NCBI RefSeq assembly: GCF_014652695.1
Contig: NZ_BMZH01000005.1
Span: 161,365-225,364 of the forward strand
DNA length: 64,000 nt
Reading direction: 5' to 3'
DNA from: Algimonas arctica
GTDB taxonomy: Bacteria > Pseudomonadota > Alphaproteobacteria > Caulobacterales > Maricaulaceae
Shown piece by piece: positions 6,651-39,475 of this stretch. Position numbers and translations under genes: made by a program. The notes beneath the pieces are model-generated. The model was given only the letters and a program-made list of their open reading frames with translations, ran no database searches and was not told the DNA's origin. The first letter of the stretch is position 1; every line of letters starts with the position of its first letter.

Positions 6651-6753
6651 GGTGCGCCCCTGACCCCCGTTAAGCAGAACATAGCGCTTTGCATAATCGT
6701 GTCTAGTCGTGGTTGAGAGGCTTCATTTGGGCAAAACTCACCATTTTGACAGT

Positions 6754-7202: not shown

Positions 7203-7229
7203 AAAAAGGCCCAGTCCAAGGACCGGGCC
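7203..7229 (-). terminator. Rho-independent terminator-like hairpin on the minus strand
   Basis: On the minus strand GGCCCGGTCC-TT-GGACTGGGCC (one mismatched pair) is followed by TTTTTC. It would end a transcript coming from about 7230-7700, where no convincing gene is visible. On the plus strand there is no T-run. Confidence 0.55.
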
Positions 7230-8266: not shown

Positions 8267-8289
8267 TTCGCCCGGCGTAGCCAAAAATG

Positions 8290-8317
8290 AGCCCGCCTGC
8301 TGATGTAGGCGGGCTTT
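8290..8317 (+). terminator. Rho-independent terminator after the UrcA gene
   Basis: AGCCCGCC, a 10-nt loop, then GGCGGGCT followed by TTC. Lies 24 nt after the stop codon. Confidence 0.75.
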
Positions 8318-9906: not shown

Positions 9907-9908
9907 GA

Positions 9909-10779: not shown

Positions 10780-10798
10780 GATAAGAGCCTCTTTTTAT

Positions 10799-10839
10799 AT
10801 GTCCGTTAAACCAGACATAATGTCTGGTTTAACGGACAT
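10799..10839. promoter_or_regulatory. Perfect 41-bp palindrome, probable operator of the XRE operon
   Basis: Two identical 20-bp arms in inverted orientation (10799-10818 and 10820-10839) around a single A. Each arm is itself a near-dyad of the form TGTCYG-N6-CRGACA, so the site could hold two dimers of a small repressor. It ends 20 bp before the GTG start of the first gene. The lack of a T-run and its position argue against a terminator. Confidence 0.75.
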
Positions 10840-11695
10840 CAAGAGTAGGCATGAGCTCGTTACATGTAGAGCGGTTTCGCAGGGGTCATTTTTTGGATGC
10901 TCAAACTTGGCTAAGGTGAGTGTCTTAAAGTCGCCTGGTTTAAGTCATGGGGTTAAGTTCCGCTTGCGGGAATTACTAGAAATTAGCGAGCGGCCTTCTT
11001 TGGGCGTTTTAAGCCGCTCGTCTAAGGTCCGCTTCGCCCCCCTAAGCGAACGTCCACGCGTTAGGTTGATCGGCACCACCCCTTAATACGGCTGTTGATA
11101 AAACCCCGTCCACGCTCGCGGTTCTCGTCGTGTTCAATCCGACTGCAATCCAAACAACCTCATCCCCGCTGTCCAAAACGCCTGCACTTTACCCTCACCC
11201 GCTTCGGACACGAGAGAGGCATTGCTCTTATGCTGGCGGGGGTTTGGTGGGCTGGACGGTGGGCGAGGTAATGCGGCGCGCGCGGTTCCATCCGACAAAG
11301 CGATTGATGATGGATTGGGGGCTGTTTGGCATAATGGCGAAAGCCTGAATGTCAGAGGGACACCTAATTTATCGGTAGAGAGGACCAGACCGAAAGTCCG
11401 CCATCCTGTCTCACCGTCCCGGACGTGATGAAGATCTGCCGGGTCACAAGGCTTTGTTTGGATGCGCCCCCAAGCGCGCGGGCTCTGCCTTCGTGTAAAT
11501 CGGTTCTCTATTGCTCTACCCGTCACGGGGGAGCGCCCGCGGTCGTGTCATTTTTGACGCAAACGCAGACTTAGCCGCGACCCTGATGTCCGGTTGGCGT
11601 GGATGTCTGTCTTGACTTCATCCCCTGTCCTTGCGACCCCTCCTCATACCCACGCGGACAAGCCAATTCCGGCTCGCTGTTATGAGGACGAAACG
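10840..11695. other. Intergenic region between the XRE operon and yaaA
   Basis: About 850 bp with repeat copy C near its start. Open frames here (11130-11526) have no family features and the wrong composition for protein. I see no RNA gene signature. Confidence 0.45.
10986..11021. repeat. Dispersed intergenic repeat, copy C
   Basis: GCGAGCGGCCTTCTTTGGGC then GTTTTAAGCCGCTCG. Here the flanks GAGCGGC and GCCGCTC pair, so the element can fold into a hairpin with TTCTTTGGGC in its loop. The core TTCTTTGGGC plus TTTTAAGCC is shared with copies A and B. Confidence 0.55.
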
Positions 11696-12481
11696 ATGTT
11701 GACCTTACTCTCCCCTGCTAAAAAATTGAATATGGATGCGTATGACGGGCCCGTGCCTGTCACCCAGCCGCGCCTGCTGAGCGACACACAACTGCTGGCT
11801 AAAACGGCCAAGGAGCAATCGCTTGGCGACCTGAAACGGCTCATGCATTTATCCGATAATTTGGCGCAATTAAACGTCGACCGGTTCGCGCGCTTTGACA
11901 TGGACGGTCAGACGGACGGCATGAAACCGGCGGGTCTGGCTTTTGATGGCGATGTCTATTGGGGCCTCGAGGCGAAAAGCCTGTCTGCGGCTGATTTAAA
12001 CTACGCCCAAACCCACCTCCGCATTTTGTCTGGACTTTACGGTCTGCTTCGCCCGATGGACGAAATTCAGCCCTATCGCTTGGAAATGGGCACGCGCATG
12101 GACAATGATCGCGGCAAAAATCTCTATCAATTCTGGGGCGAAAAAATCGGCGAACAGATCCGAGCCGATTTGAACGGCCATCATGATCAAACCGTGTTGA
12201 ACCTGGCCTCCAATGAATATTTTAAAGCCGTCAATGCCAAGACACTCGACCGCCCCGTCATTGAGGTTAAGTTCCTCGAAGAAAAGGATGGGAAAGCCCG
12301 GCCTGTCCAATATTACACCAAATTTGGACGCGGTTTGTTTGCCCGCTGGGTGATACAAAACCAGATCAACACCGCCGCCGACCTCAGACACTTCAACGAG
12401 AATGGCTATACACTGTCAAAAGAGCGATCGTCCGAGATGGAATTAGTTTTCGAACGCCTGCAACCCCCGAAAAAATCCTAA
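11696..12481 (+). CDS. yaaA: Peroxide stress protein YaaA
   Basis: 261-residue DUF328/UPF0246 protein starting MLTLLSPAKKLN, the invariant opening of the family. Further family signatures are LYGLLRPMDEIQPYRLEMGTR (about 110-130) and FYTKFGRG-like PVQYYTKFGRGLFARW near the C-terminus. YaaA limits intracellular free iron during peroxide stress in E. coli. I choose ATG 11696, which has GAGG 8 nt upstream and gives the normal length; the frame is open further upstream but without family similarity. Confidence 0.92.
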   Translation: MLTLLSPAKKLNMDAYDGPVPVTQPRLLSDTQLLAKTAKEQSLGDLKRLMHLSDNLAQLNVDRFARFDMDGQTDGMKPAGLAFDGDVYWGLEAKSLSAADLNYAQTHLRILSGLYGLLRPMDEIQPYRLEMGTRMDNDRGKNLYQFWGEKIGEQIRADLNGHHDQTVLNLASNEYFKAVNAKTLDRPVIEVKFLEEKDGKARPVQYYTKFGRGLFARWVIQNQINTAADLRHFNENGYTLSKERSSEMELVFERLQPPKKS

Positions 12482-12496
12482 GCGACCCGCGCTGAC

Positions 12497-13630
12497 ATGA
12501 AAATTGCTTCTCTTGATTTTGTCCAGCGCGACGTCAGAAGTCCGCTTCAATTTCGACCGCATGAGTATGCGCAAATTGTCGCGCGCATGTTTGTGCAGAC
12601 CAGCCGCGATAATGTTCCCGTGGTCGCAGCGGGCGTGGCGTTTTTTGCGCTACTGTCGATCTTCCCTCTGATCTCGGCGTCACTGTCAATTTACGGTTAT
12701 TTTGCGGACCTCTCCGACATTCAAGGCTTGGCGAATTTCCTGCGTCCTCTGATGCCCGAAAGCGCGTGGGTCATTATTTCGGATCAGATCGCGTCCGTTG
12801 TCAGCGCCCCGTCAACGGAACTCTCATTGCGGATCGTGTTCTCTCTGCTGTTCGCGCTCTACACGGCTGGGGCCGGCATACGCGCCATTTTACGCGCCAT
12901 GAACGTGGCCTATGGCGAAGAAGAAAAACGCTCCGTTTTACAATTTTATGCTGTCGCGTTTGGGATGACCTTGGGCATGTTTGCCTTTGTCTATCTGTCT
13001 TTGCTGATCATTATCGGCATACCCGCCGCGCTCGCCTTCCTCAATTTGGACCGCACAGCGTCCGTTTTCGCGGGTAATTTACCGTGGGTCGTTTTGATTA
13101 CAGTTTTCATGCTGGGATCCGGTTTCGTCTATCGCTTCGGCCCGTCGCGTCGCTGGGCGCGCAAACGCTGGATCGTTCCGGGCGTATTGTTCACGACCGT
13201 GAGTTGGTTGATGATCAGCTGGGCCTTTTCATTTTTTGTCCGCAACTTCGGGCAATATGAAGCAACTTATGGCGGCATTTCCGCCGTTGTTGTGTTGCTG
13301 CTGTGGTTTTGGCTGACGGCCATGACGGTCATCATTGGTGCCGAACTCAACGCCGAAATGGAACGCCAGACCCTCGCCGACACGACGCGCGGACCGGAAC
13401 GCCCGGTTGGAAAACGTCATGCGCGTATGTCGGATTTCCTCACGGGGGCGATGCGCCGGCTATTCCCTGAAAAATTCGTCCATGCCCCGAGTTTGAACGA
13501 ACAAGATAAGCCCGTTAATCCCAGTGCGCCCGATTTGCATCTGCTAGATATTGATCTTCCCGACACTGATCCGGACGATATGGATCCCGCCGACATTGAT
13601 TTGCCCAAGTCTGAAACAGACCCGTCATGA
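12497..13630 (+). CDS. YihY/BrkB-like inner-membrane protein
   Basis: 377 residues. Six hydrophobic helices between about residues 35 and 275, with GVAFFALLSIFPLISA and the conserved GGISAVVVLLLWFWLTAMTVIIGAELNAE near the end of the membrane domain, both hallmarks of the YihY/UPF0761 family formerly called ribonuclease BN. The C-terminal 90 residues are soluble and very acidic with repeated DxDxxD phrases (LLDIDLPDTDPDDMDPADIDL), possibly ion binding or simply disordered. Starts 15 nt after yaaA. Biochemical role unknown. Confidence 0.88.
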   Translation: MKIASLDFVQRDVRSPLQFRPHEYAQIVARMFVQTSRDNVPVVAAGVAFFALLSIFPLISASLSIYGYFADLSDIQGLANFLRPLMPESAWVIISDQIASVVSAPSTELSLRIVFSLLFALYTAGAGIRAILRAMNVAYGEEEKRSVLQFYAVAFGMTLGMFAFVYLSLLIIIGIPAALAFLNLDRTASVFAGNLPWVVLITVFMLGSGFVYRFGPSRRWARKRWIVPGVLFTTVSWLMISWAFSFFVRNFGQYEATYGGISAVVVLLLWFWLTAMTVIIGAELNAEMERQTLADTTRGPERPVGKRHARMSDFLTGAMRRLFPEKFVHAPSLNEQDKPVNPSAPDLHLLDIDLPDTDPDDMDPADIDLPKSETDPS

Positions 13631-13644
13631 CGGTTTGCTGTGCG

Positions 13645-14328
13645 TTAAACGGCCGGCGTAATCAGCGCCGACCCGCCCGCGCGGTTGGAATTGACAGCCC
13701 GGTCTACCTCCCAAAAAATCAAATCATCTGCGCTCAAGGCCGAATCCAAAACCCGCTCAGCTGTCGAGTCCGGGTCAAGCCACGCCGCCCATTCTGTTTC
13801 CGGCAATCGCACCGGCATCCGGTGGTGCAGCCGTTTGATCGGCCCATCGCTGTCCATCGTCAGAATTGTGCAGGACAGCAGGCTGACGCCGTCCTCAACC
13901 CGCCATTGATCCCACAGGCCGGCAAAGGCGAACAGGCCGCTCTCTTGGGGACTCGCGTCCGGCTTAATGCACCACGGCACTTTCCCGCCCTGTTCGCCCG
14001 TCCATTCATACCAATGGCTCGCGGGGATCAGCGCGCGACGGCGGCGCCACGGCGTCCGGAACGATGGTTTGTCCGCGGCCGTTTCTGCGCGCGCATTAAA
14101 CAGCGGGCGGCCCTGCGGCATGTCTTTCCGCCAATGCGGATGCAAGCCCCAGCGCATCGGCACCAATTTGCGGGCCTTTGTTCCATCGAGGGCAATTGTC
14201 GGAACAACGGTCATCGGCGTGATGTTGTAATTCGGTTCCCAAGTCCACAAACCAAGATCGCTAATCTCGGCCTCAAATCGCGCCGCGACCTGACCTTGGT
14301 TGGTATCAATGACATAGCGGCCACACAT
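13645..14328 (-). CDS. SRAP-domain protein (HMCES/YedK family)
   Basis: 227-residue DNA-protein crosslinking protein that caps abasic sites in single-stranded DNA. The invariant MCGRY start is present: after Met removal Cys2 forms the thiazolidine link. Other active-site elements are NARAET (Asn), SHWYEW (Glu) and HHRMPV (His). The longer open frame upstream is antisense to the Nudix gene and is not coding. Its start is only 34 bp from the proposed start of the divergent Nudix gene, with no clear ribosome binding site. Convergent with the BrkB-like gene. Confidence 0.93.
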   Translation of the reverse strand: MCGRYVIDTNQGQVAARFEAEISDLGLWTWEPNYNITPMTVVPTIALDGTKARKLVPMRWGLHPHWRKDMPQGRPLFNARAETAADKPSFRTPWRRRRALIPASHWYEWTGEQGGKVPWCIKPDASPQESGLFAFAGLWDQWRVEDGVSLLSCTILTMDSDGPIKRLHHRMPVRLPETEWAAWLDPDSTAERVLDSALSADDLIFWEVDRAVNSNRAGGSALITPAV

Positions 14329-14362
14329 AGTTTCAAAGCTAGCACAGAGCGAGGTCAGCGCA

Positions 14363-14800
14363 ATCACCCCTGAGCCAACAAAGCGAACAGATTGCGTCGG
14401 GGTCGCCTGTTTTCGCGATGACACTGTCTTGTTGATCCGCCGCGCCAACCCGCCGCGCGCGGGCGAATGGTCGCTGCCCGGCGGCCGGATCGAACCCGGC
14501 GAGAGCGAAGCTGACGCGGCTCTGCGTGAACTCACGGAAGAGACGGGCGTGACCGCCATGCTTGGCGAGAAAGTTGCGGTCATTGAGGCTGATTTCGAAG
14601 GCTTTTGTTACCGACTTCACGATTATGCCGCCGTCTGGACGAGCGGCGATCCCTGCGGGGCCGATGATGCGTTAGAGGCCCGGTTTATCCCCGTCGCCGA
14701 TATTGGCGCGCTCGGCATGTGGTCAAAGACCAACACCGTTATTCGCGACGCCTATTCTGCAATCGAGTCTCGCCCTGTTAAGAAAGGGGGGCTAGCGTAG
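14363..14800 (+). CDS. Nudix hydrolase with a probable ATC start
   Basis: Nudix box GGRIEPGESEADAALRELTEETG fits Gx5Ex7REUxEExGU. The first beta strand that the family needs (DCVGVACFRDDTVLLIRRANPPRAGEWSLPGG) is encoded upstream of the first conventional start (TTG 14429). The upstream frame has no ATG, GTG or TTG back to a TAG at 14315. An ATC at 14363 has GAGG 8 nt before it, giving 145 residues. Either ATC is the start or a former ATG has been lost. Substrate unknown; the type resembles MutT-like or ADP-ribose-like enzymes. Ends 4 nt before the next gene. Confidence 0.75.
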   Translation: MTPEPTKRTDCVGVACFRDDTVLLIRRANPPRAGEWSLPGGRIEPGESEADAALRELTEETGVTAMLGEKVAVIEADFEGFCYRLHDYAAVWTSGDPCGADDALEARFIPVADIGALGMWSKTNTVIRDAYSAIESRPVKKGGLA

Positions 14801-14804
14801 GCCT

Positions 14805-15239
14805 ATGCGTCATTTGTTCGTCATCATCCTGCTCCTGCTGCCGCTCAGCGCGCTCGCGCAGGATACACAGAGCGAGGAGGACCGCCGCGCCGCACGTGAA
14901 GCGGCTGAATTGCGGATCGAGGCTGACATGGTTCGGATGACGAGCCTCGTTGAAGCCTTGGCGAAAAACCTCGGTCAGATGCACTATTTGCGCACCTTAT
15001 GCTTTGGTGAGGATGATCAGCAATGGCGTGAATATATGTCCGACATGCTCGATATTGAAGCGCCCGGCGATACGTCAAAACAACGTGAGCTCACGCAGGC
15101 CTTTAACGCCGGATATTACCTCGAAAAAAAGAGACATAGCGTATGTAGCCAATCGGTCAGCGCCGACGTTGCCGCCTTGGCTGAAAATGGTCGCTCCGTA
15201 TCGCGCATGCTTGGCGATCCCTATCGGGAGATGAATTAA
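14805..15239 (+). CDS. TIGR02301 family exported protein
   Basis: 144 residues. Signal peptide cleaved after ALA-QDT, then a helical domain with MVRMTSLVEALAKNLGQMHYLRTLCFGEDDQQWREYM and a second cysteine in HSVCSQ, the two-cysteine pattern of the alphaproteobacterial TIGR02301 family. Function unknown. It lies between the Nudix gene and the META lipoprotein and overlaps the latter by one base (TAATG). Confidence 0.82.
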   Translation: MRHLFVIILLLLPLSALAQDTQSEEDRRAAREAAELRIEADMVRMTSLVEALAKNLGQMHYLRTLCFGEDDQQWREYMSDMLDIEAPGDTSKQRELTQAFNAGYYLEKKRHSVCSQSVSADVAALAENGRSVSRMLGDPYREMN

Positions 15240-15649
15240 TGATCGGTCGCGTTGTTGGCTCGCTCGTCCTCATGGTCGCGCTGGGTGCCTGTCAAAAAGC
15301 CATTAGTCACGCCGCCAATCGGCCGCTAGCGACCTTGGCTGGGACAGAATGGGGGCCCATCCAAGGCGGTGTCGATCAGTTTGTGGCCTTTAAGAGTGAG
15401 GGCGAAGTCGTCGGCTCTGGTGGCTGTAATAATTTCTTCGGCAGCTTCACCCAAAATGGCCGCCTCATCACCTTTGGTCCTCTGGCGAGCACCAAGAAAG
15501 CCTGCCCGCCGCCGATTATGGACGCCGAGCGCGACTTTTTGCAATTGCTTGAACAAGTCCGCGCCGTCGATGCGACGTTCAAAGAACTGACGCTCTACGG
15601 CGAAGACAACCAAGTTCTCACGACACTCCGTCGTCGCGATTGGGATTAA
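15239..15649 (+). CDS. META-domain lipoprotein (HslJ-like)
   Basis: 136 residues. Lipobox LGAC near residue 18 marks it as a lipoprotein. The mature part holds one META domain: LAGTEWGPIQ, then SGGCNNFFGSFTQNGRLITFGPLASTKKACPPPIMDAERDFLQLL. This arrangement is the HslJ family, outer-membrane or periplasmic proteins linked to stress such as novobiocin or heat in E. coli. Last gene before a bidirectional terminator. Confidence 0.88.
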   Translation: MIGRVVGSLVLMVALGACQKAISHAANRPLATLAGTEWGPIQGGVDQFVAFKSEGEVVGSGGCNNFFGSFTQNGRLITFGPLASTKKACPPPIMDAERDFLQLLEQVRAVDATFKELTLYGEDNQVLTTLRRRDWD

Positions 15650-15651
15650 AA

Positions 15652-15675
15652 AAAGCCGCCCCAAGGGGCGGCTTA
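15652..15675. terminator. Bidirectional terminator between META gene and clpA
   Basis: AAGCCGCCCC-AA-GGGGCGGCTT, flanked by A-rich sequence on the left and TTAAATATT on the right. Suits two converging transcripts. Confidence 0.8.
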
Positions 15676-15720
15676 AATATTACACGGTGACTCTTTATTC
15701 GGTGACTCTAAGGTCGACGT

Positions 15721-18033
15721 TTATGCGTCTTCTTTGGGTGTCGCTTCGGAATTGTCTTCTTCCGGGGCTTTTGGCTTCGGCGTCGGAACAAATTTGAAGG
15801 TCAAATTTTCCTTCTTCCGATCGACGCCGACTTTGACCAGACCGCCATATTTCAGCTTCCCGAACAGGATTTCGTCAGCCAGTGGCTTTTTGACATATTC
15901 CTGAATCGTGCGTCCGAGCGGACGCGCGCCGTAACGCTTGTCATACCCTTTGTCCGCAATCCATTGGTTCGCACCCTTGGACACTTCAAATTCGATTTTA
16001 CGGTCAGCCAACTGAGCTTCGAGCTGAATAACGAATTTATCGACAACCCGGCCAATGTGCTCTTTGGACAACGGCGCGAACATGACGGTCGCATCGAGGC
16101 GGTTGCGGAATTCTGGCGTGAAGCGCCGTTTAATCGCCACCTCTTGCTCATCATCCTTCATGCCACGACCAAAGCCAATCTCTGACTTTGCCGCATCGGC
16201 TGCGCCTGCATTTGTCGTCATAATAATGATGACATTGCGGAAGTCGACCTTGCGACCATTCGAGTCCGTCAAGAAGCCATTATCCATCACTTGCAACAAG
16301 ATGTTGTAGATGTCCGGATGGGCTTTTTCGATTTCGTCGAGCAACAGCACACTATGCGGATTCTGATTAACCGCATCTGTCAGCAGACCACCTTGATCAT
16401 AACCCACATAGCCGGGAGGCGCCCCGATCAAACGCGACACAGTGTGACGTTCCATATATTCGGACATGTCAAAGCGGAGCAGTTCCAGACCTTGCGTCAT
16501 CGCCAGCTGGCGAGCGACTTCGGTTTTACCCACACCTGTCGGCCCCGCGAAGAGGTAAGACCCAATCGGCTTATTCGGCTCACGCAAACCTGCGCGCGCG
16601 AGTTTCACCGCAGCGGCGACCTGATCAATGGCTGAGTCTTGACCAAACACCATGCGCTTGAGATCTTGCGGAAGACTCTTGAGTGCTTTCTCATCATCAC
16701 GCGAAATCGACTTGGGCGGGATACGCGCGATTTTGGACACGACGGCTTCGATTTCCTTGATGCCGATGAGCGACTTGCGCTCTTCTTCAGGCACAAGTTT
16801 CGTGCGTGCGCCCGCTTCATCAATGATGTCGATGGCTTTATCGGGCAATTTGCGGTCCGTGATATGGCGCACAGATAGCTGCACAGCCGCATCAATCGCC
16901 TCGGTCGAATATTCGACCTTATGGAATTCCTCAAAATAGGTTTTTAGCCCGTGAAGGATCAGCACCGCATCCTCGGGAGTTGGCTCAGAGACATCGATTT
17001 TGAGGAAGCGACGCGCAAGCGCGCGGTCTTTCTCGAAATGTTGACGATATTCCTTATAGGTCGTCGACCCCATGCAACGAAGCTTGCCGCTTTGCAGCGC
17101 TGGTTTGAGCAAGTTTGACGCATCCATTGCGCCGCCACTTGTTGCGCCAGCGCCGATGATGGTGTGAATTTCGTCGATGAATAGAACCGCACCCGGCGTG
17201 TCCTGCAATTTGGTCACAACCGCTTTCAACCGTTCTTCAAAATCACCGCGGTAGCGTGTGCCCGCAAGCAACGCGCCCATATCAAGTGAGTAAATCGTGG
17301 CGTCCGCGAGCACGTCCGGCACATCATCATTGACGATGCGGCGCGCGATACCTTCGGCAATCGCCGTTTTACCGACACCCGGATCCCCCACGAGGAGCGG
17401 GTTATTTTTGCGTCGGCGCGACAGCACCATGATACAGCGTTCGACTTCCTCAGCGCGTCCGATCAGCGGATCAATATCGCCTTCACGGGCCTTCTGATTC
17501 AAATTGACCGTATATTCGGCCAACGGATCTTTGCCTTGTGCTTCTTCGCTATCTTCGTTCACGCCGGTTGGCGTTTTAGGCGCCGCCGCTGTCCCGTTTT
17601 TGGCGATGCCGTGGCTAATATAATTGACCGCATCGTAACGGGTCATGTCCCGTTCTTGCAGGAAATAGACGGCGTGTGACTCACGCTCGGCGAACAAAGC
17701 GACCAGCGCGTTGGCGCCCGTGACTTCTTCGCGGCCAGAGGATTGCACGTGAATAACCGCGCGTTGAATAACACGGTGGAAACCCGCCGTTGGGCGCGCT
17801 TCTTCAAATTCCTCGACGATCAATGAGGCGAGGTCTTCGTCCAAATAACGCGTAACGTCCGCTCGAAGCGGTTCAATATCAACACTACACGCCGTCACAA
17901 CGGCGGCAGAGTCTTTGTCATCCAACAGCGCGAGCAACAAATGCTCCAGCGTTGCGAGTTCGTGTTTCCGGTCACTCGCAAGCGTCAGGGCGCGATGAAT
18001 GGTTTCTTCCAAGACTGGAGAGAATGAGGCCAT
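15721..18033 (-). CDS. clpA: ATP-dependent Clp protease ATP-binding subunit ClpA
   Basis: 770 residues. N-terminal Clp repeat domain ([16 protein letters not shown] to about 150), first AAA+ module with GDPGVGKTA, second with GPTGVGKTE and the pore-loop region [13 protein letters not shown]. The ClpP-docking loop reads EIGFGRG. ClpA unfolds substrates and feeds them to ClpP. ATG 18033 has AAGGAAG 7 nt upstream and gives the ClpA length; an open frame beyond it is unrelated. The acidic C-terminal tail ([15 protein letters not shown]) is typical of alphaproteobacteria. clpS lies immediately upstream on the same strand. Confidence 0.96.
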
Positions 18034-18187
18034 AATTAAGCTTCCTTTCGAATACTCGACTTGGGAAGTCGGGGATCGATATTCAATGCGGCGCGAGGCG
18101 ATGTGGCTGCACGAAACCGTGAAAAGTGTGTCTGCTCTGCAACAATAGCGGAATTTGACTTCAAACTCGGCAAGTGAGCGACGAAAA

Positions 18188-18574
18188 TCATTCTTTCTCC
18201 AACGTGCATTGTAGCGGGTGCATGTTGCGTTTGGCGGCGTCCATGACTTGCGCGACTTTGGTTTCGGCGACTTCAAATGTATAGACACCGCATGTGCCAA
18301 TGCCGGTTTGATGCACCGCGAGCATGACTTGCGTGGCCTCTTCCTGAGACTTTTTGAAAATCCCCATCAAGATCGAAATCACAAATTCCATCGGCGTGTA
18401 ATCGTCGTTCATCAGCAAGACGCGGTACATGGAGGGCTTTTTGGTCTTCTCGCGCGTCTTGGTTGCGACACCGCGTTCCATACCGTCATCGGACCCATCA
18501 TCCGGTTTTCCCGGTCGTCCATTTGCGCCCTTATCCGGGCCAGCCAATTTTATAGGTGTCGTCAAGTTGAGCAT
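18188..18574 (-). CDS. clpS: ClpS, N-end rule adaptor of ClpAP
   Basis: 128 residues. A charged flexible N-terminus is followed by the ClpS core with [16 protein letters not shown] (N-degron pocket residues ND-D), then [25 protein letters not shown]. It hands substrates with destabilising N-terminal residues to ClpA. ATG 18574 is taken; GTG at 18583 is in frame and also possible. The gap to clpA is 154 bp. Confidence 0.95.
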
Positions 18575-18733
18575 TATTCTCACTTACTATGGCAGCGCAT
18601 CGCGTTTGAAAAGTCGCCCACGCGACAAAGTCATACTCAACACACTACGCGTTTATGGGGTTGCCCTGATATTTTCAGGGCATGGTTAAGGCATATTAAC
18701 CTGTCCCTAACCGACCCCGTTTAGCGGTTCGTC

Positions 18734-31451: not shown

Positions 31452-33371
31452 ATGCGCAAAGCCCTCATTTCCCTGCTCGGCACATCTATGCTGGCGTCAG
31501 GCGCGCTCACCTCCGGCTGTGCGTCGACAGCCAAAGGGGTGACGAAGTCGACTTTCGTCGCGGGTCCAGACATCAGCCTGACGCAATCCGCACCGCGCGG
31601 CACCGCTCTCGCGGTCGTGCGTTACCCCGCCTTTATCGAAGATGATGCCGAAGCCGATTTCGCCGTCGCCTATGCCGGAATGGCGATTGGTGGGGGGAAT
31701 GGTGCATCTGATCCCGTCGCGACTCAAGCCCTCGCCGACTCCGTTATTTTGAAATCGAATTTCTTCGCTATGTCGCTCTACCGGGAACTCGCATCGCGGC
31801 TGCCAGAACATTCCGTCTTGCTCAGCCCGCACCGCATTACCAAGGCGTCGGACGGCAGCTTAACCTCTGAACCCATGACGCAAGCAGAGAGCATTGCCTC
31901 CGTCGTCACCGTCGATTTCACCGCGTATAGCTATCCCGATCTGGAACGGATGATGGGCGGCAAGCCCCTTACCTTTGGGGATCTCTTCACGCCCATCATT
32001 ACGGTCAGAACCGATCCGCGCGCGGCTGTCGGATCAGAAGGCGTGCTGATGGCGTCAGCCCCCATCATCGGAGCGGCCGCAGGCGGCAATTATTCTCAGG
32101 CCATCACAGACGCCACGACCCTGCAATCCGGTCGGATCGAAGCGGGTGTCCCTGAACTTGACATTCTCAGCCATTTGTCCGGCACACCGCGTTTAATGCC
32201 GGCGACACAAGGCCTGCGTGACCGGTCACGGGGCGCGGTCAAGAGCTATCCGATTGAGAAAATACAATTAAATGGGGCCAAGCTTGCGACCCTTGGCGAA
32301 GATGATACCGATATTCTCGAAACACCTTTTACCGACGGTTTCGCCAATCAGATCATTATGTTGATCAATACCACGGACGCGACCAAGGCCGCAATGTTGC
32401 GCCGCGCGGATGTGATCGCGGATTATGACGATAACCTCGCGGCTTTGACCTTAGTCGGCAGTGACGATCCGGATTATCTAACTCGCTTTCGCTATGCCGA
32501 GCGGTTGTTGGAAGCCGAACAGAAATACCTCTCCGTTCAATCGCTCCGCCTCTACGACGGCGTCATTAATGGCGAGATGGGCGGACAAGTCCGCGATATG
32601 CTCAAAGAAGAATACCGCGTGCTCGAACGCCGTCGTCAATTAGCCCGACAACAAAACATCGCGACGGCGGCGGCCTTCGCCGCGGCTCTGGGTGGGGTCG
32701 CGATTGCTACACAAGATAATAATGGCCGCGGTTCCTCCCTAGGACAACAAATCGCCGCCCAAGCAATGATCCAAGGCGCGATTTTTGCCGCGACAGAAGC
32801 GATGCGGAAAAACAAACTCTCCAAAGGAGTTGGCACTAATTATCTGCAATCCGTCGTCCCTGCGCTGGAGGCACAAACTGAAATTCAGGTCGATTTGATT
32901 GACAGTAGCGAGACGATAACGGCCATTCGGTTCGAGGATTTAAAAACGAAACTGAGCGAGCTTTATTCCGACAATCAGCGTGCGCTGGATACTGTCGCCA
33001 CCCGCTGTGTCTATAAGGGCCCCGTTGAGGCTGGAACCTGGTTGGGCGCGTGTGAAAACGGCGTTGCTAATGGGTCTGGTGTTGGCATCTTCCGCAATCG
33101 CGCAGGCGATCTCGTTGAGCATTATGGCTACGCCCGCGCTGGCGTCGCGGACGGACCCGGCTACCGCATTGTCCGGGCACCCAACGGCTCATACTCAATT
33201 GAAGGGAATTTTTCAGGCGGTATGGCGAACGGCGTCGCACAGGTTGAACGTTCAGGTTCTGTTGCACTGCGGCGCTATACAGGCGGGCGAGATATGGGCG
33301 CAGCCCCCGCCGGGTCGATTATCGCCTCGCCGTTTGCAGCGCCTTATACTGTCGGAGACCGAACCGGATGA
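31452..33371 (+). CDS. Large lipoprotein with MORN-like tail (envelope cluster gene 1)
   Basis: 639 residues, no family recognised for the main part. Lipobox-like LTSGC places the lipidated cysteine at 23. Residues about 415-455 are an Ala/Gly-rich hydrophobic stretch (AAAFAAALGGVAIA) between charged helices. Residues about 540-610 contain MORN-like units (GTWLGACENGVANGSGVGIF, YARAGVADGPGYRI, EGNFSGGMANGVAQV). It begins the cluster with GGAG before the ATG and overlaps the next gene as ATGA. Probably faces the periplasm, either in the outer leaflet of the inner membrane or the inner leaflet of the outer membrane. Confidence 0.75.
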   Translation: MRKALISLLGTSMLASGALTSGCASTAKGVTKSTFVAGPDISLTQSAPRGTALAVVRYPAFIEDDAEADFAVAYAGMAIGGGNGASDPVATQALADSVILKSNFFAMSLYRELASRLPEHSVLLSPHRITKASDGSLTSEPMTQAESIASVVTVDFTAYSYPDLERMMGGKPLTFGDLFTPIITVRTDPRAAVGSEGVLMASAPIIGAAAGGNYSQAITDATTLQSGRIEAGVPELDILSHLSGTPRLMPATQGLRDRSRGAVKSYPIEKIQLNGAKLATLGEDDTDILETPFTDGFANQIIMLINTTDATKAAMLRRADVIADYDDNLAALTLVGSDDPDYLTRFRYAERLLEAEQKYLSVQSLRLYDGVINGEMGGQVRDMLKEEYRVLERRRQLARQQNIATAAAFAAALGGVAIATQDNNGRGSSLGQQIAAQAMIQGAIFAATEAMRKNKLSKGVGTNYLQSVVPALEAQTEIQVDLIDSSETITAIRFEDLKTKLSELYSDNQRALDTVATRCVYKGPVEAGTWLGACENGVANGSGVGIFRNRAGDLVEHYGYARAGVADGPGYRIVRAPNGSYSIEGNFSGGMANGVAQVERSGSVALRRYTGGRDMGAAPAGSIIASPFAAPYTVGDRTG

Positions 33372-34171
33372 AACAGTTTTTAATGACCGCAGCAGCGCTC
33401 TTACTGCCGACGGCCGCTCTCGCGGATATTGAGGTACGTACACTCACGCCTGCCTCGCTCACCGCTGAGCAGAGTGAAACCTGCGTGACCATGATGTCGG
33501 GTTTTCCCGACGACAGTCCGGAATCGCGCTATGTTTTCTTTCGCCTAAGCCAAGAGCTCGCCAAGGATGTCACGCCGGAATTATCCCAATTGATGACAGA
33601 TTTCATGATCGACAATGAAACACGGCGCCTGCCCGCCGACTGGCCGATGCTCGACGTGATTGAAGATATTGCCGACCCTGTTTTACGCCAAGCGGCGCCC
33701 ACGCAAACTGTCGCCAGCATGGCCCATATTGCTTATTTCAATGCGCTGTGCGGACCCTTTGTTCAGGGTCAGGTCGATAGCCTGTTCGCCTTTAATCCTG
33801 CTCTGGCAGACACAGATATAATGATCCGCGAAGACGCCCTTTACTTGCGTCAAATTCTGGCTGAAGCGCTGGACCGTCTCGGCGCATCAGACACGATGGC
33901 GGCGCAAGCCTATGCGCTGTCCCTCGTGATAGAGCGTGACGATATCGAATATATCGGATTTGAAGACGAAATTGGTGAGTTGGAAACCCTTTATATGGGT
34001 GATCTCGACACCAAGCTTTCGCGCTCGAACGATGCCGTGAATGAAGGCATGAATGTCGAATCCTTCCAGGACGCTGTCGCGCTCGCCAATGACATGAACG
34101 ACCAAGCCCGTGAACAAGCGCAAAAGGAACGGCTCTATTCTCTGGTTCGCATTTTAGGCGGGATCGGCTAG
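33368..34171 (+). CDS. Periplasmic protein of unknown function (envelope cluster gene 2)
   Basis: 267 residues. A signal peptide ends at ALA-DIE; the mature protein is acidic and mostly helical, with two cysteines (ETCVTMM and ALCGPF) that could pair. No domain recognised. The helical build and tight coupling (4-bp overlap with gene 1, 9-bp gap to gene 3) suggest a structural or adaptor partner of the lipoprotein and the vWA proteins. Confidence 0.7.
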   Translation: MKQFLMTAAALLLPTAALADIEVRTLTPASLTAEQSETCVTMMSGFPDDSPESRYVFFRLSQELAKDVTPELSQLMTDFMIDNETRRLPADWPMLDVIEDIADPVLRQAAPTQTVASMAHIAYFNALCGPFVQGQVDSLFAFNPALADTDIMIREDALYLRQILAEALDRLGASDTMAAQAYALSLVIERDDIEYIGFEDEIGELETLYMGDLDTKLSRSNDAVNEGMNVESFQDAVALANDMNDQAREQAQKERLYSLVRILGGIG

Positions 34172-34180
34172 CCCCTGTCT

Positions 34181-35119
34181 ATGCGTAGACGGTCCCGCAA
34201 CATCTCGGTCTTTACGATTTCAGCGCTCGACTTGTTCGCGGCGGCGCTCGGGGCCTTTATCCTCATCGTGCTCGTGCTGTTCCCTTATTACAAGATGGGG
34301 GGGACCGACACGTCGATGGAGGAATTGGAAGAGCTCGTCGAAAAACGTCGCCTCGTCGCCAGTTCCACGCAGTCCGAAATGGCGCAAATTCGCGCCATTC
34401 AGGCGGAAGTCCGGCTCTTGGATCGGCAATATCGCACAACGGCTGAAAACATGTCCGAGGTCGAAGCAAAAATCCTTGAGGTGCAGGCGCAAACCGCCGC
34501 CATTGAAATCCCTGAACCGCCGCCCATACCCAAACCTGTGCCGCAACCCGACCCCATTCCCAATCCCCCGCGGTCCAGCGGACGCGGTGTCGAGTTTTCC
34601 ATTTTAGGAGTGGGCACCTCAAAAAAAGATGTGATGATCGTCGTCGATATGTCCGGCTCAATGCGGGCCCATACAAATAATGTCGTCTCCGCTTTGGAAG
34701 AAATCCTCGGTCAGATGCAGACCGATAATCGGTTTTCCATTCTCGGCTATCGGGGCGGGCCAAGCTATTCCGTCTACCCGCCTGGTGGTCAGCTCGCGCG
34801 CGCATCGGCGGGCGAAGTCAATGGCGCACTCGCTTTTGTGCGGCGATTGCCCGGCGATTTTGGCGGCGGCACGCCGACCCAAAATGCTTTGGTGCGCGCG
34901 CTCAATATTAAGCCCGGCGCGATCATCCTGATAAGTGATGGGCAGCCGGATGACGGCAATCCGGGCGACATTGTGCAAAATATCACGCGGCGTAATCGCG
35001 GTCGCACCGAAATTCATACGGTCGCCATTGGGGACTACACATCCGACCCCGCCTTGACGATGTTCTTGCAAGAGCTGGCCAATAATAACCGCGGTGACTT
35101 TGTTGGGAGAGCCCGATGA
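34181..35119 (+). CDS. Membrane-anchored von Willebrand A protein with intact MIDAS (envelope cluster gene 3)
   Basis: 312 residues. A short basic N-terminus precedes one membrane helix (about 14-37, SALDLFAAALGAFILIVLVL) carrying Asp17, in the style of the MotB/TolR helix (ADFxTAMMAFF in MotB). Then come a coiled coil (about 45-115), a proline-rich linker (EPPPIPKPVPQPDPIP) and a vWA domain from about 138. The MIDAS is complete: DMSGS, GGGTPTQ and SDGQPDD. Topology predicts the vWA domain in the periplasm. Overlaps its paralogue by 4 nt (ATGA). Confidence 0.82.
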   Translation: MRRRSRNISVFTISALDLFAAALGAFILIVLVLFPYYKMGGTDTSMEELEELVEKRRLVASSTQSEMAQIRAIQAEVRLLDRQYRTTAENMSEVEAKILEVQAQTAAIEIPEPPPIPKPVPQPDPIPNPPRSSGRGVEFSILGVGTSKKDVMIVVDMSGSMRAHTNNVVSALEEILGQMQTDNRFSILGYRGGPSYSVYPPGGQLARASAGEVNGALAFVRRLPGDFGGGTPTQNALVRALNIKPGAIILISDGQPDDGNPGDIVQNITRRNRGRTEIHTVAIGDYTSDPALTMFLQELANNNRGDFVGRAR

Positions 35120-36099
35120 AGCGGCGCGCCGACAGAGAGGTCAATGTCTTCTCACTCAGCGCGGTGGACCTCTTCGCCGCCGCGATGGGGGCGTTTGCCT
35201 TGCTCGCCATTATTCTGCTGCCTTACTATCAGAAGGAAATTCGCGAACGGACACCGGAGAATGCGATCAGCGACCTGCTGCGTGCGGCCGAGGATAGCTC
35301 GGTCGAAACCGTCGAGAAACGCAAGGCGCTCGAAGCCAAGCGTGCCGCCTCGACGCAAGCTGTGTCGGACATCCGTTCGGACGCTGACAAACTCCTCGCG
35401 GACCTTCGCGCAGCCGAAGCCGCCCTCTTGGAAAAACAAGCCGAGACACTTCGCGCGACCCCGGAACCCGAACCGATTGAGGATAAGCCCGCGCCGCAAG
35501 ATAATCCCAAACCGGCCCTCGTCTCGTTTCGGTTTCTCGGTTTAAAAACGACGAAGGACGACGTTGCTATCGCGCTCGATATGAATCGATGCATGGGCGG
35601 ACATGAGCGCAGTGTCGCCCGCGCCGTGGATCGGATCATCGACAGTTTACAAGATAACCATGCTCTGCAGATTGTGGGCTTCCAACAGACCGATAGCGGT
35701 CCACGCACGCAAAGCTGGCCGCCCGGCGGCGGACTGCGCAACATTAATCTGGCCGGAACGCAGGCGGAAGCCAAACAATTCACGGATCGCCTGACCGGGC
35801 AATTTGGCGGCTCAGCGTCCATGTTGGATGCGTTCGGAAAACTCCTGAGCGGTCCCGGCGACGCGATTTTCCTTGTCTCGGATGGTCTGCCCAATCCAGC
35901 CGCCAATAACGGCCTCTCGCCCAATCGCTTAATCAGCGAGCTGACCCGCCTGAACGGAGGTCGCAAAGAAATTCATACCGTCGTCGTCGGTAACTTTTTT
36001 GACTATGACGGTACGGTCGAATTTATGGAAACGCTGGCTGCGCGCAATGGCGGCCAGTTCATGGCACTCGCCAGTTCCGATAAAGGGGTTTGCGATTAA
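35116..36099 (+). CDS. Paralogous membrane-anchored vWA protein with degenerate MIDAS (envelope cluster gene 4)
   Basis: 327 residues with the architecture of the preceding gene: basic N-terminus, one helix (SAVDLFAAAMGAFALLAIIL) with Asp18, coiled coil (about 50-115), Pro-rich linker and vWA domain. The first MIDAS element reads DMNRCM, so both metal-coordinating serines are gone, and the threonine loop is GGSASMLD instead of GGGTPTQ, while SDGLPN is retained. The domain therefore probably no longer binds metal in the usual way, pointing to a specialised partner of gene 3. Confidence 0.8.
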   Translation: MKRRADREVNVFSLSAVDLFAAAMGAFALLAIILLPYYQKEIRERTPENAISDLLRAAEDSSVETVEKRKALEAKRAASTQAVSDIRSDADKLLADLRAAEAALLEKQAETLRATPEPEPIEDKPAPQDNPKPALVSFRFLGLKTTKDDVAIALDMNRCMGGHERSVARAVDRIIDSLQDNHALQIVGFQQTDSGPRTQSWPPGGGLRNINLAGTQAEAKQFTDRLTGQFGGSASMLDAFGKLLSGPGDAIFLVSDGLPNPAANNGLSPNRLISELTRLNGGRKEIHTVVVGNFFDYDGTVEFMETLAARNGGQFMALASSDKGVCD

Positions 36100-36142
36100 T
36101 GCCCCGTTCCCAAATCAAATCTAGCCCGCTAGGATCGATCCG

Positions 36143-36937
36143 ATGAACCAGACTGATAGCCTTATTAAACGCGCCTTCGTGTTTCTCATCGCGATTGTCG
36201 CGGCCATTGTGCTGATCGGCATCATTAAGTTCACAACAGGCCCGACGTTGCAAGAAATCCTGCTCGACAGCGACGCCACCTTCTGGCCGTTTACGATCCA
36301 GAACATCATGTGGGTCGCGCTGTTCATTGGTTTTGGTGAGCTGGTCCTGCGCTGGTCCGCTGCCAAGGATGAGGAAAGCCAGCTCGCGCGCGGCTACCTA
36401 CCAACGGATGGCCGTCGCCTCGATCATGCGCTGCTCGGTAAAATCCGCGACAGCATCGCCAGCCGTAAATTCGCGCGCAATGCGTTTCTGCCACGAATGA
36501 TAAGCCGCACCATCGATCAATACCGTGTCAGCGGCAAGGAGGACCAAGCGCTGGGCGTGATGAATGCGTCGCTAGAACTGTACATGCACGAGATTGATTT
36601 GCGTTATTCGACGCTACGGTACCTCACGTGGTTGATCCCAAGCTTAGGCTTTATCGGTACCGTCATGGGCATTATGTTTGCTCTGCAATATGCGGGGGTT
36701 CCTGCCAATGCCGAGAGCGAAGAATTTCTCTACCAAGTCACGCAACGCCTCGGCGTCGCCTTCACCACGACCCTGCTCGCCCTCATCATGTCCGCTGTCC
36801 TCGTGCTCGCGCAGAGCATGGTGCAAAGCAAAGAAGAACGCGCGCTGAACGCGGCGGGGCAATATACGATTGATAATCTGATTTTGCGGTTGGGTGGTCG
36901 GGTTGATGCGGACGTCAACACAAAGGCGACTGACTAA
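36143..36937 (+). CDS. MotA/TolQ/ExbB-type proton channel (envelope cluster gene 5)
   Basis: 264 residues with four predicted helices: about 10-30, 46-70, 157-182 and 200-224. A cytoplasmic domain of about 85 residues separates helices 2 and 3. The family signature is in helix 3 (IPSLGFIGTVMGIMFAL), followed by the pore-lining helix GVAFTTTLLALIMSAVLVLAQS with the conserved threonines. MotA/TolQ/ExbB proteins form pentamers around two single-helix partners; here the two vWA proteins upstream are the natural candidates. Overlaps the next gene by one base. Confidence 0.88.
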   Translation: MNQTDSLIKRAFVFLIAIVAAIVLIGIIKFTTGPTLQEILLDSDATFWPFTIQNIMWVALFIGFGELVLRWSAAKDEESQLARGYLPTDGRRLDHALLGKIRDSIASRKFARNAFLPRMISRTIDQYRVSGKEDQALGVMNASLELYMHEIDLRYSTLRYLTWLIPSLGFIGTVMGIMFALQYAGVPANAESEEFLYQVTQRLGVAFTTTLLALIMSAVLVLAQSMVQSKEERALNAAGQYTIDNLILRLGGRVDADVNTKATD

Positions 36938-38481
36938 TGTCCGACTGGCAGCCCCCCAATAATGAATTTGACGTCCGCGAAGAACGGACACCCTATGGAC
37001 GTTACGCGATCTATGCGGTTCTACTCGGCGCAGTCGCCATCGGTGGGATATGGCTCGCGAGCCAAGTCGTAGTCCGCGAACCCGGCGACCGCGCGCCGAT
37101 CATCGACATCGCGCAAGGCGAAACCCCTGACCCTGAGGCCAAGCCCATGGGCGCGGACGAAGCGGCTTGGGTCGCCGCATTGGAGAAGGACACTTTGGAA
37201 GGCTACCGCGAGTATCTGGCTGAATTTCCAGACGGAAAATTCGCCGAGAAAGCTCAAGAACAGATTGACGTTTACGACAATCGCGATTGGGCGACAGCGG
37301 AACAGCGCAATACAATTGTTGGGTATGAGGATTACCTCGCCGCATGGGAAGATGGCCTTCACGCGGATAAAGCCCGCGAACGCATCGCCGAGATGAAAGC
37401 GGCACAAACAGCCGCGGAACGGGACGCCGCAGAGCGGGCAGCGCGCGAGAAAGCGGACTGGCAAACGGCGGCTCAGGCCAACACAATTAAGAGCTATCAG
37501 ACCTATTTAGGCAAACATGCGACGGGGACGAACGCTGATACCGCGCGGTCTCGCATCGCGTCTATGCAAGCGTCCGCTGCGGATAATGCGGCCTGGCAAG
37601 CGGCTGATGCTGCGGGCACGGCGGATGCCTATGAGCGTTACCTGAGTAGTTTTCCGCAAGGCGCTTACGTCGCGCAAGCGATCGCCGCGATCGAGCGACT
37701 ACGACCCTCCGTCGGCAAGGTCTTTTCCGATTGCGACGCCTGCCCGTCCATGACGGTTTTGCCCGGCGGGAATGATACGCTCGGCGCGCTCGACACCGAC
37801 GACACAGCGCGGTCTAATGAAAAGCCGGCCCGCCCTGTGAACTTCAGTGCACCGTTTGCTATGAGCGTGCGCGAAGTCAGCTTTGCCGATTATGACGCCT
37901 GTGTCGCGGCAGGTGGCTGTTCAACCCGTCCGAGCGATAAGGGCTGGGGGCGCGGATTGCGGCCCGTCATCAATGTGTCGTTTGCTGACGCACTAGCCTA
38001 TGCGTCGTGGCTGTCAGCGAAGACAGGATTTGCCTACTCTCTCCCCAGCGAGGCGCAGTGGGAATATGCGGCGCGCGCCGGATCGAATGACATCTATCCC
38101 GGCGGATCAACAGCCGCGCTCTGCGCGTTTGCCAATGGCGCGTCCAAGGAAACCTCTGTCGCGTGGGCCAATACGGCCTGTACTGACCCCGGCGTCGGAC
38201 GCACCCTGCCCGGCGGCACCTTGTCGGCCAATAAATTCGGGCTGCGCGATATGGTCGGCAATGTCGCGGAGTGGACGTTGGATTGTAATACGTTGAACCT
38301 GCGTGATGCGCCCGTGGACGGCAGCGCCGATGCGCGCGGGTCTTGCGGACAACGAGTTGTGCGCGGCGGGTCGTGGTTCTCGGGGCCTGATGACCTGCGA
38401 TATTCGGCGCGCACCATGTTGCGACGGGGCGACAAAAACGACTTTACGGGCTTCCGTGTCGTGCGCAAGATCAGCGGTTAA
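36937..38481 (+). CDS. Membrane-anchored repeat protein with FGE/SUMF1-type domain (envelope cluster gene 6)
   Basis: 514 residues. A cytoplasmic N-terminus (about 25 residues) and one membrane helix (about 26-47) are followed by four repeats of the type WxxAxxxxTxxxYxxYL (from about 69, 121, 180 and 225), helical-hairpin units that resemble TPR-like repeats. Residues about 268-512 form a formylglycine-generating-enzyme-sulfatase (SUMF1) fold: RPVNFSAPFAMSVREVSFADYDACV, LPSEAQWEYAARAG, GLRDMVGNVAEWT and RVVRGGSWFSGPDDLR. Many such bacterial domains are binding modules without oxidase activity. Predicted periplasmic. Confidence 0.85.
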   Translation: MSDWQPPNNEFDVREERTPYGRYAIYAVLLGAVAIGGIWLASQVVVREPGDRAPIIDIAQGETPDPEAKPMGADEAAWVAALEKDTLEGYREYLAEFPDGKFAEKAQEQIDVYDNRDWATAEQRNTIVGYEDYLAAWEDGLHADKARERIAEMKAAQTAAERDAAERAAREKADWQTAAQANTIKSYQTYLGKHATGTNADTARSRIASMQASAADNAAWQAADAAGTADAYERYLSSFPQGAYVAQAIAAIERLRPSVGKVFSDCDACPSMTVLPGGNDTLGALDTDDTARSNEKPARPVNFSAPFAMSVREVSFADYDACVAAGGCSTRPSDKGWGRGLRPVINVSFADALAYASWLSAKTGFAYSLPSEAQWEYAARAGSNDIYPGGSTAALCAFANGASKETSVAWANTACTDPGVGRTLPGGTLSANKFGLRDMVGNVAEWTLDCNTLNLRDAPVDGSADARGSCGQRVVRGGSWFSGPDDLRYSARTMLRRGDKNDFTGFRVVRKISG

Positions 38482-38533
38482 TGCACGCTCTCCGTTCACG
38501 CGCGGCTCAGCTTATCTGTGCTAAGCAACGCTC

Positions 38534-39475
38534 ATGATGTTGAAAACTCTCATGACCAGTTTGGCGCTCACGGCAGCGCTCGGCACCGCCTTGCCTGCTT
38601 ATGCGCAGGTCACAGACCAGACCGATCAGTCCGAAGAGGATTGGAGGAAATCCCGCAAAAAAAGCGGGACATCCGATATTTATCGCACCCCCAATACTAG
38701 CTCGACCGGCGTAGGCGCCCCCGTCATTGACTATGAACCGGTCAGCCCGGTTGAACGCCTCCCGTCTGAATCGCGGCGTCACCTGATGAAGGAACGCGCC
38801 AAAGCGATTGCGGAAAGTGACGACGGTGATATTTCCGACGCGGAATATGTCCCGTCCGATGAGGCAAAATCCGACGAACAATTGATGCGTGACGAGCAAG
38901 AGGCGTGGGACGTTATCGTGACTGATATGCAAGAGTCTGGCGGTGAAGCGACGTCCGAAGGTGGACCGAACAAGGTCGCTGTGGTCGGTGAAAACGGCGC
39001 GACTCCCACACGCGGATCGCGCGGCGGGTCCACGCGCACGTTGCAAGAAATTATGGACGCGATTAAATCTGGTCAGACCGGCGGCGGCAACGCGTCTGGC
39101 GCGGCGAATGGGCAATCACCTGATGGACAGCCACAAGGTCAAAACCCGTCCGAGTCGGTCGCTGATGCGTCCGGGCAAGCTCAAAACGACGGCGACGCAA
39201 ACGCCGAAGGTTCATCGGATAACGACGGCCAAGCACAAGAGGCTGGCCAAGACACGGGCCAAGGCGACGCATCCGATCAGGGCGACAGTTCAGGCGAGGA
39301 CAATAGCACCGATACTGGTGACGCGGACGCTTGGCCCGCCGATACGCGCGCCGAAGAACCGCTCAGCCCGCTTGAGCGTATCCGTCGGGCGAAAGAAGAC
39401 AGCCCAACGCGCGGCACTCAACGCAGCGCGTCCGATTATCTCAGCACGGGCCATGAGAAGACGGGCGACGACTGA
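38534..39475 (+). CDS. Exported low-complexity protein (envelope cluster gene 7)
   Basis: 313 residues. Signal peptide ends PAYA-QVT. The first 150 mature residues are charged and probably helical. From about 165 the sequence is an intrinsically disordered tract rich in Gly, Gln, Asp, Ser and Asn (GNASGAANGQSPDGQPQGQN, GQDTGQGDASDQGDSSGEDN). No domain recognised. 52 bp after gene 6, same strand; likely the last member of the cluster. The long disordered tail could span the periplasm or bind peptidoglycan, but that is speculation. Confidence 0.7.
   Translation: MMLKTLMTSLALTAALGTALPAYAQVTDQTDQSEEDWRKSRKKSGTSDIYRTPNTSSTGVGAPVIDYEPVSPVERLPSESRRHLMKERAKAIAESDDGDISDAEYVPSDEAKSDEQLMRDEQEAWDVIVTDMQESGGEATSEGGPNKVAVVGENGATPTRGSRGGSTRTLQEIMDAIKSGQTGGGNASGAANGQSPDGQPQGQNPSESVADASGQAQNDGDANAEGSSDNDGQAQEAGQDTGQGDASDQGDSSGEDNSTDTGDADAWPADTRAEEPLSPLERIRRAKEDSPTRGTQRSASDYLSTGHEKTGDD

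Follow-up and report, generated by a model that had tools for sequence, protein, structure and literature searches.

We analysed a 64,000-nucleotide stretch of contig NZ_BMZH01000005.1 from Algimonas arctica (hereafter the window, in whose positions all coordinates are given) and found seven open reading frames (ORFs), g1–g7, all in the plus direction between positions 31452 and 39475, which form a unit around a MotA/TolQ-type channel gene and two genes for single-helix proteins tipped with vWA domains. The junctions g1/g2, g3/g4 and g5/g6 overlap and the remaining gaps measure 9, 43 and 52 bp; the ORFs thus confirmed the compact co-directional arrangement described in an earlier note, which had been made from the letters of this DNA. 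The genes and their features are as follows.

31452..33371, + strand: g1, 639 amino acids (aa), predicted lipoprotein with a glycine-patterned (MORN-like) C-terminal part; no Pfam family above cut-off.
31518..31520, + strand: g1 Cys23 codon, putative lipidation site; Cys23 invariant in 65/65 aligned sequences.
33368..34171, + strand: g2, 267 aa, predicted secreted protein with a signal-peptide-like N-terminus; without known family; alignment from 14 loci.
34181..35119, + strand: g3, 312 aa, pore-helix protein with a vWA domain and intact metal-site motifs (DMSGSM / TPT / SDG); Pfam and motif reading.
34211..34291, + strand: g3 pore-helix segment, residues 11–37, with the Asp17 codon at 34229–34231; Asp17 and Gly24 invariant in 18 proteins.
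34628..35095, + strand: g3 vWA domain, residues 150–305; Pfam VWA_3, 6.3e-14.
35116..36099, + strand: g4, 327 aa, pore-helix protein with a degenerate vWA metal site, D-[ML]-[NS]-x-C, and a C-terminal G-[VI]-C-D; Pfam and motif reading.
35167..35169, + strand: g4 Asp18 codon; invariant in 24 g3/g4-type proteins.
35560..36057, + strand: g4 vWA domain, residues 149–314; VWA_3, 5.3e-5, below cut-off.
36143..36937, + strand: g5, 264 aa, MotA/TolQ/ExbB-family channel protein; PF01618 (MotA_ExbB), 4.7e-11, and tree.
36659..36772, + strand: g5 span with Thr173, Thr209 and Thr210, candidate pore threonines; invariant in 8 g5-type sequences.
36937..38481, + strand: g6, 514 aa, one membrane helix (28–46), four W-repeats of about 45 aa (78–255) and an FGE-fold domain; Pfam and hydropathy; closest solved relative PvdO, 5hha.
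37741..38466, + strand: g6 FGE-fold domain, RGGSWFS motif without Cys; Pfam; motif readable in 13/15 ortholog rows, two being cut.
38534..39475, + strand: g7, 313 aa, signal-peptide-like N-terminus followed by low-complexity sequence, with conserved ends (TDQSEEDWR..., and SASD[YF] in most); ORF, Pfam and alignment.

A hydropathy scan revealed a strong membrane helix in each of g3, g4 and g6 and three in g5, in which a further hydrophobic stretch (IQNIMW...GELVLR) is conserved but lies below the hydropathy threshold. Scanning for promoters and terminators gave 3 and 11 sites, respectively, vs 4.1 and 9.3 in shuffles.

The Pfam match of g5 upheld its earlier assignment to the MotA/TolQ-type channels. 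The window genome holds five MotA_ExbB matches, four outside the locus, and g5 is therefore an extra member of the family rather than the sole such channel. The protein ends about 40 residues past its last strong helix, and Thr173, Thr209 and Thr210 are among the residues invariant in all eight g5-type sequences compared (four from the window family and four distant). The two MotB-like helices proposed for g3 and g4, with Asp17 and Asp18, carry the motif as described, and Pfam recognised their vWA tips. Among 18 selected pore-helix proteins from three lineages, with vWA or other tips, Asp17 and Gly24 (g3 numbering) were the only positions invariant in 18/18. The tips behind the helix vary: vWA occurs in many proteins, Pfam found no vWA match in one helix protein each of loci L065 and L112, and the helix proteins of L066, L067 and L068, read from sequence only, have short or unclassified tips. 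At L066, two pore-helix proteins with similar short tips adjoin each other. PADLOC profiles gave weak hits to ZorA (2.8e-4) and to ZorB (0.007 and 0.011, covering residues 10–91 and 4–57 only), and Pfam and equivalog profile scans revealed no tolR/exbD-like gene among the seven.

The two vWA tips are not alike. The g4 domain scored 23.8 bits against a cut-off of 27, yet g3 finds g4 at 1.2e-44. The g3 motifs DMSGSM, TPT and SDG were present in 14 uncut ortholog rows, window included, and the same number of uncut g4 rows, window included, showed D-[ML]-[NS]-x-C together with the C-terminal G-[VI]-C-D; the second g4 motif, SASM, was readable in 13/14 rows, and a g4 fragment from L080, the fifteenth row, deviates (SSSM, GVCA). 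By these sequences, g3 keeps the metal-site motif, and g4 has lost it and holds two conserved cysteines. We infer that g3 may be a gripping arm and g4 a structural one, which perhaps contains a Cys pair.

The genes also occur together, as the earlier note had required of its reading: g3-g4-g5-g6 were found together in 30/30 short loci, and the full order g1–g7 was found in 12/12 longer loci (L002, L069–L079), L003 and L080 being left out of this count as they are cut by an end. In L076, g7 lies about 4 kb away from g6. An extra gene encoding 163–168 aa with membrane-helix-like segments lies between g5 and g6 in L069 (11309–11800) and L070 (7951–8457). This togetherness is far beyond chance. 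Within the family, 32/119 genomes have g5; all of these have g1 as well, as does G383, whose assembly is fragmented and splits g1 over contig ends. Neither gene was found in 86/119, in a search that covered g1 and g5 across all the negative genomes. Second copies of the g1 lipoprotein stand alone at L168 (G293:C12:3093–5024) and L169 (G356:C14:4345–6279), with no other unit gene within the 14–16 kb fetched. The genes flanking the unit form at least five sets among 13 loci, or six if L072 is counted, its upstream flank matching two ORFs downstream of the unit in L075, and presence of the unit requires 10 state changes on a quick ClpA tree of 80 genomes. Because of these varied flanks and state changes, the seven-gene unit is accessory, apparently coming and going as a whole. 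Further afield, g3 was found in 8/249 genomes drawn from the order, all 8 within the window's family; a genome scan with peptide patterns gave 3 loci, one of which (L004) is a 43-residue partial match in a Rhodococcus record; and 50,697 phage records gave no match to the system. On plasmids, a family member turned up in Rhizobium leguminosarum (pRlBT01d) and a distant protein in Anabaena.

Relatives of the channel fall into three architectures: the window family, clade B and a kinase-linked set. The g5 profile matched 3/398 genomes at 1e-25 in a phylum draw, own genome included, and 17/385 at 1e-20 in a class draw. Clade B comprises the 11 genomes of the two draws whose best g5-profile match lay between 1e-20 and 1e-28, and the kinase-linked set comprises the Rhizobium leguminosarum plasmid and the seven other genomes that matched below 1e-100 in the class draw (385). 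In the tree, the window family and the kinase-linked set formed one group (support 98/99), and this group, clade B and the Anabaena protein stood apart from 22 paralogs taken from the window genome and the seven kinase-linked genomes (97/95); the window channel and clade B thus share the larger group on different branches. As a clade of its own, the kinase-linked set had a support of 29/60; the window family may be sister to the set or nested within it, and it is possible that the window lineage lost the kinase set. One kinase-linked locus, L063, likewise pairs one partner that has the metal motif with one that does not.

All 11 clade B loci encode a channel, two helix proteins and an FGE-fold protein, along with two others, one lipoprotein-like (about 410 aa) and one of about 500 aa; at L103 one additional gene lies in between. 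At L107, PEGA repeats were also found in the FGE protein, and the 500-aa protein bears a weak resemblance to TPR proteins. In both clade B loci scanned with Pfam, the vWA match was below 1e-5 for one helix protein and weak for the other. The motif scan detected 21 clade B proteins, each with an intact D-x-S-x-S motif; the second L171 protein escaped its pattern. In the window, by contrast, g4 has lost the metal-site motif. The Anabaena relative (Anabaena cylindrica PCC 7122 plasmid pANACY.03; L113, 5785–8364) is a MotA-family protein of 466 aa whose C-terminal tail is long. Two small proteins with a single helix come next; the helix of one carries an Asp (FLDILTNTVG), that of the other does not (FLSVLACTIG), and these genes adjoin type III-B CRISPR genes and a viperin gene.

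The remaining proteins of the unit are less readily classified, g1, g2 and g7 having no Pfam family above cut-off. Cys23 and Ala24 of g1 are invariant in the 65 aligned sequences, and we read g1 as a probable lipoprotein because of this Cys23. Its 'MORN' label, taken from the earlier note, found no Pfam MORN match at E up to 1; it derives from the glycine pattern of the C-terminal part, in which many glycines are invariant in the same alignment. We do not claim homology between g1 and the clade B lipoprotein: one pairwise hit (8e-5) came from within one locus, and profile comparisons were unconvincing (probability 10.5% and 11.9%; E 2.0 among 1,688 ORFs plus reversed ones). For g6, the proposed FGE-type assignment was borne out by Pfam (FGE-sulfatase domain, 1.8e-46), the best solved relative being PvdO (5hha, 4.9e-37), with PorK chains at about 1e-9. 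The RGGSWFS motif lacks Cys in 13/13 readable window-family rows; the pattern did not read the clade B FGE proteins. This motif stands where formylglycine enzymes carry their active-site Cys pair, so that g6, from its sequence, is likely not a formylglycine-generating enzyme, and differs in this from the enzymes of its fold family. Profile comparison linked the g6 FGE domain to the clade B FGE protein with 99.6% probability, and the g6 profile gave no match below E 0.7 among control or kinase-linked ORFs. Its W-repeats matched a PP2C and a kinase of L065 (E 5.4e-4 and 0.017, the sole two hits among 2,006 ORFs); with the whole-g6 profile these values became 0.97 and 0.79, and we keep this link as a lead only.

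The core of this unit has a published counterpart. A 2025 article in Mol Biol Evol (PMC12204202) reports an AlphaFold3 prediction in which heterologous transmembrane (TM)-tethered vWA pairs enter pentamers of TolQ-like proteins; an Asp and a ring of Thr are conserved, TolR/ExbD is lacking, and these systems occur mainly in Proteobacteria and Verrucomicrobia, their function being given there as unknown. The window unit resembles these TPH-vWA motors in the TolQ-like gene beside a heterologous TM-tethered vWA pair, in the conserved helix Asp and channel Thr, and in having no tolR/exbD; the 11 clade B loci also fit the published description, a comparison that included no named Idiomarina sequence. 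The motor core is thus already covered by this prediction of June 2025, and the description of the system as undescribed does not hold. The main text of PMC12204202 mentions neither kinase nor phosphatase, and neither sulfatase nor formylglycine nor FGE; 'FHA' occurs there solely as FhaC; in the available part of PMC12505986, which groups non-flagellar channels, vWA does not occur. New are the seven-gene variant with FGE-fold protein and lipoprotein, the asymmetric vWA pair, and the phospho-signalling neighbours of the channel's relatives. The earlier reading therefore stands in its channel, helices, vWA tips and gene conservation, and falls in its 'undescribed' and MORN parts; it missed the phospho genes, the varied tips and the asymmetry of the vWA pair.

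We consider it reasonably probable, judging from sequence, that the seven-gene unit encodes a proton-driven inner-membrane motor, with the g5 channel moving the g3/g4 vWA pair in the periplasm. Five g5, one g3 and one g4 would assemble, protons would pass Asp17/Asp18 and the Thr residues, and the coiled-coil and Pro-rich arms of g3 and g4 would rotate or pull. The vWA pair so turned or pulled may act on the predicted lipoprotein g1 and the envelope, g3 gripping in a metal-dependent manner and g4 serving a structural role. In this model g1 would serve as partner in the outer membrane, g6 would provide a scaffold through its FGE fold, likely without making formylglycine, and g2 and g7 would add further periplasmic parts. 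Such a motor would most likely work on the envelope, since the unit encodes a predicted lipoprotein (g1) and two secreted-looking proteins (g2 and g7), and the tips would lie in the periplasm.

Several observations weigh against this motor. The helix profile, searched against the PDB at E up to 10, found no MotB, ExbD, TolR or ZorB chain, and matched only insect odorant receptors (0.23) and a transporter; the g5 profile found no PDB chain at E up to 0.01. Loci L064, L066 and L067 carry such helix proteins without a channel gene in the fetched stretch. The system is also absent from 86 or 87 of 119 family genomes, and is therefore not essential to the lineage. The grounds for the motor are the channel family, the weak ZorA/ZorB hits, the Asp, the gene pairing and the published prediction (PMC12204202).

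We then examined the genes beside the channel, leaving hits from queries of the same locus out of the counts. At least one of FHA, PP2C and Ser/Thr kinase lies near the channel gene in 7/8 kinase-linked loci, two or three of these classes in 6/8, and kinases proper in 5/8; an FHA gene immediately precedes the channel gene in 6/7 readable loci. Pfam assigned beta-helix, PDZ or SH3 domains to kinases encoded there, recognised PP2C, and showed FHA combined with trypsin-like, peptidoglycan-binding or vWA domains. In G064, the channel has only FHA genes beside it, PP2C genes lying by a helix-vWA gene on another contig, and G123 has none of the three classes near its channel. For control, we took 20 stretches surrounding the other MotA/TolQ/ExbB genes that these seven genomes carry, and none had such neighbours (6/7 vs 0/20, p 2e-5, loci treated as independent). 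The pattern was first noticed on L061, L062, L063 and L065; L100, L101 and L112 (three of the seven positives), and L102 of G064, were added after it had been noticed. FHA, PP2C or kinase genes were found in 0/14 window-family and 0/9 clade B loci scanned. It speaks against the link that the helix proteins of L064, L066 and L067 have neither channel nor signalling genes in their stretch. The window genome has one FHA match, away from the unit; kinase and PP2C were not searched there. The Rhizobium leguminosarum cluster (L112, pRlBT01d, 2603–18638, on a plasmid typed as conjugative) encodes two kinases and two PP2C along with FHA proteins and a protein of 1,610 aa that Pfam did not match. Our search of the open-access literature found no paper linking such a channel with vWA, FHA, PP2C or kinase.

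Since the channel's nearest relatives mostly lie beside phospho-signalling genes, phosphorylation may switch such motors; among the closest relatives, gating of the same motor would likely fall to membrane Ser/Thr kinases, PP2C and FHA readers, none of which has a gene near the unit in the window lineage. Tentatively, these data can be joined in one reading, which we hold to be possible: a branch of proton-driven 5:2 motors would stand under Ser/Thr phospho-control, with envelope-sensing membrane kinases bearing wall- or glycan-binding domains, FHA docking on the channel, PP2C resetting it, and exchangeable periplasmic tips, the vWA pair being one kind; the Algimonas-type unit would be the kinase-free form, with a dedicated lipoprotein, an FGE-fold partner and an asymmetric vWA pair.

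The same neighbourhoods could be read differently, with the channel and helix pair as a sensor that gates a phospho-signalling circuit, its vWA tips reading the state of the envelope rather than being driven. The signalling genes found near relatives outside the window family and at none of the controls, the FHA gene directly before the channel gene, and the beta-helix, SH3, PDZ or peptidoglycan-binding domains borne by kinases and an FHA protein, presumably in the periplasm, would all suit such a circuit. We nevertheless find a sensor unlikely, as neither the window-family and clade B loci nor G123 has signalling genes, and the one FHA match of the own genome lies elsewhere.

A Zorya-like anti-phage system, in which the motor senses phage damage to the envelope and signals to an effector, appears rather improbable. 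Zorya combines ZorA, which has a long tail, and ZorB, which has an OmpA domain, with ZorC/D. The window unit shares with it a MotA-family channel and a single-helix partner, along with the weak ZorA/ZorB profile hits; it is an accessory unit with 10 state changes on the tree, and among its relatives some lie near kinases and a trypsin-like protease, one locus has a caspase-like gene about 3 kb off on the other strand (read from sequence), and a long-tailed one, on an Anabaena plasmid, has type III-B CRISPR genes next to it. However, g5 has no long cytoplasmic tail, g3 and g4 carry vWA instead of an OmpA-type peptidoglycan-binding domain, and neither PADLOC nor Pfam found a ZorC/ZorD or ZorE effector, or any helicase or nuclease match, among the seven genes. 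The phage records gave no hit, and a reading of the window's gene list, which was not systematically searched, brought no recognisable defence gene. The unit is equally distinct from Tol-Pal and Ton-ExbBD, with which it shares the channel family and a presumed proton drive: the tolQ model scored g5 at 18 bits vs a cut-off of 221, and there is no TolR, TolA, TolB or Pal among the seven genes. Scores, domains and partner genes thus agree with the earlier statement that this is neither Zorya nor Tol-Pal.

In the type IX secretion system (T9SS), a GldLM motor works with a PorK/GldK ring of FGE fold, and by analogy the window motor could drive an FGE-fold ring for secretion or surface assembly. Here the motor is found with an FGE-fold gene in the window family and in 11/11 clade B loci, and g6, which shares its fold family with PvdO and PorK/GldK, resembles GldK at 6.1e-21 and the PorK chains. 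At 75.2 bits, its score with the GldK equivalog falls short, however, of the cut-off of 350, better scores came from PvdO and FGE enzymes, and no secretion family exceeded its cut-off among the seven genes, leaving such a machine improbable.

That the unit replaces or supports a flagellum or another motility organ is very improbable: flagellin was found in 9/32 system-positive (one of the nine weak) vs 72/87 system-negative genomes (raw p 4e-8), but the association had no support on the 80-genome tree (8 independent pairs, median p 1, too few to reach 0.05), each of the two traits groups by genus, and flagellin occurs in the window genome too. The unit shares the Asp-bearing helix partner, coiled coil and linker with flagellar MotAB stators, but vWA replaces the OmpA-type domain and g5 scored 16.2 bits with the MotA equivalog vs a cut-off of 380. 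Flagellin itself had no match in 38/119 family genomes, some of them incomplete, with 11 state changes on the 80-genome tree.

Elsewhere in the window, at 931–5577, genes resembling a Pst-type phosphate transporter, an arsenic methyltransferase-like protein and a radical-SAM protein adjoin one another; as read from sequence, this group would fit organo-arsenic metabolism.

To return to the predicted proton-driven motor, few 5:2 motors driven by the proton-motive force have a known job. Algimonas porphyrae is a described marine species, not pathogenic, and one of its proteins is among the g1 relatives. The unit is conserved and self-contained, and in relatives of Algimonas porphyrae it would make one 5:2 motor testable by simple deletion. 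Furthermore, the kinase-linked relatives, if confirmed, would represent a proton motor wired to eukaryote-like Ser/Thr signalling and driving different periplasmic tools.

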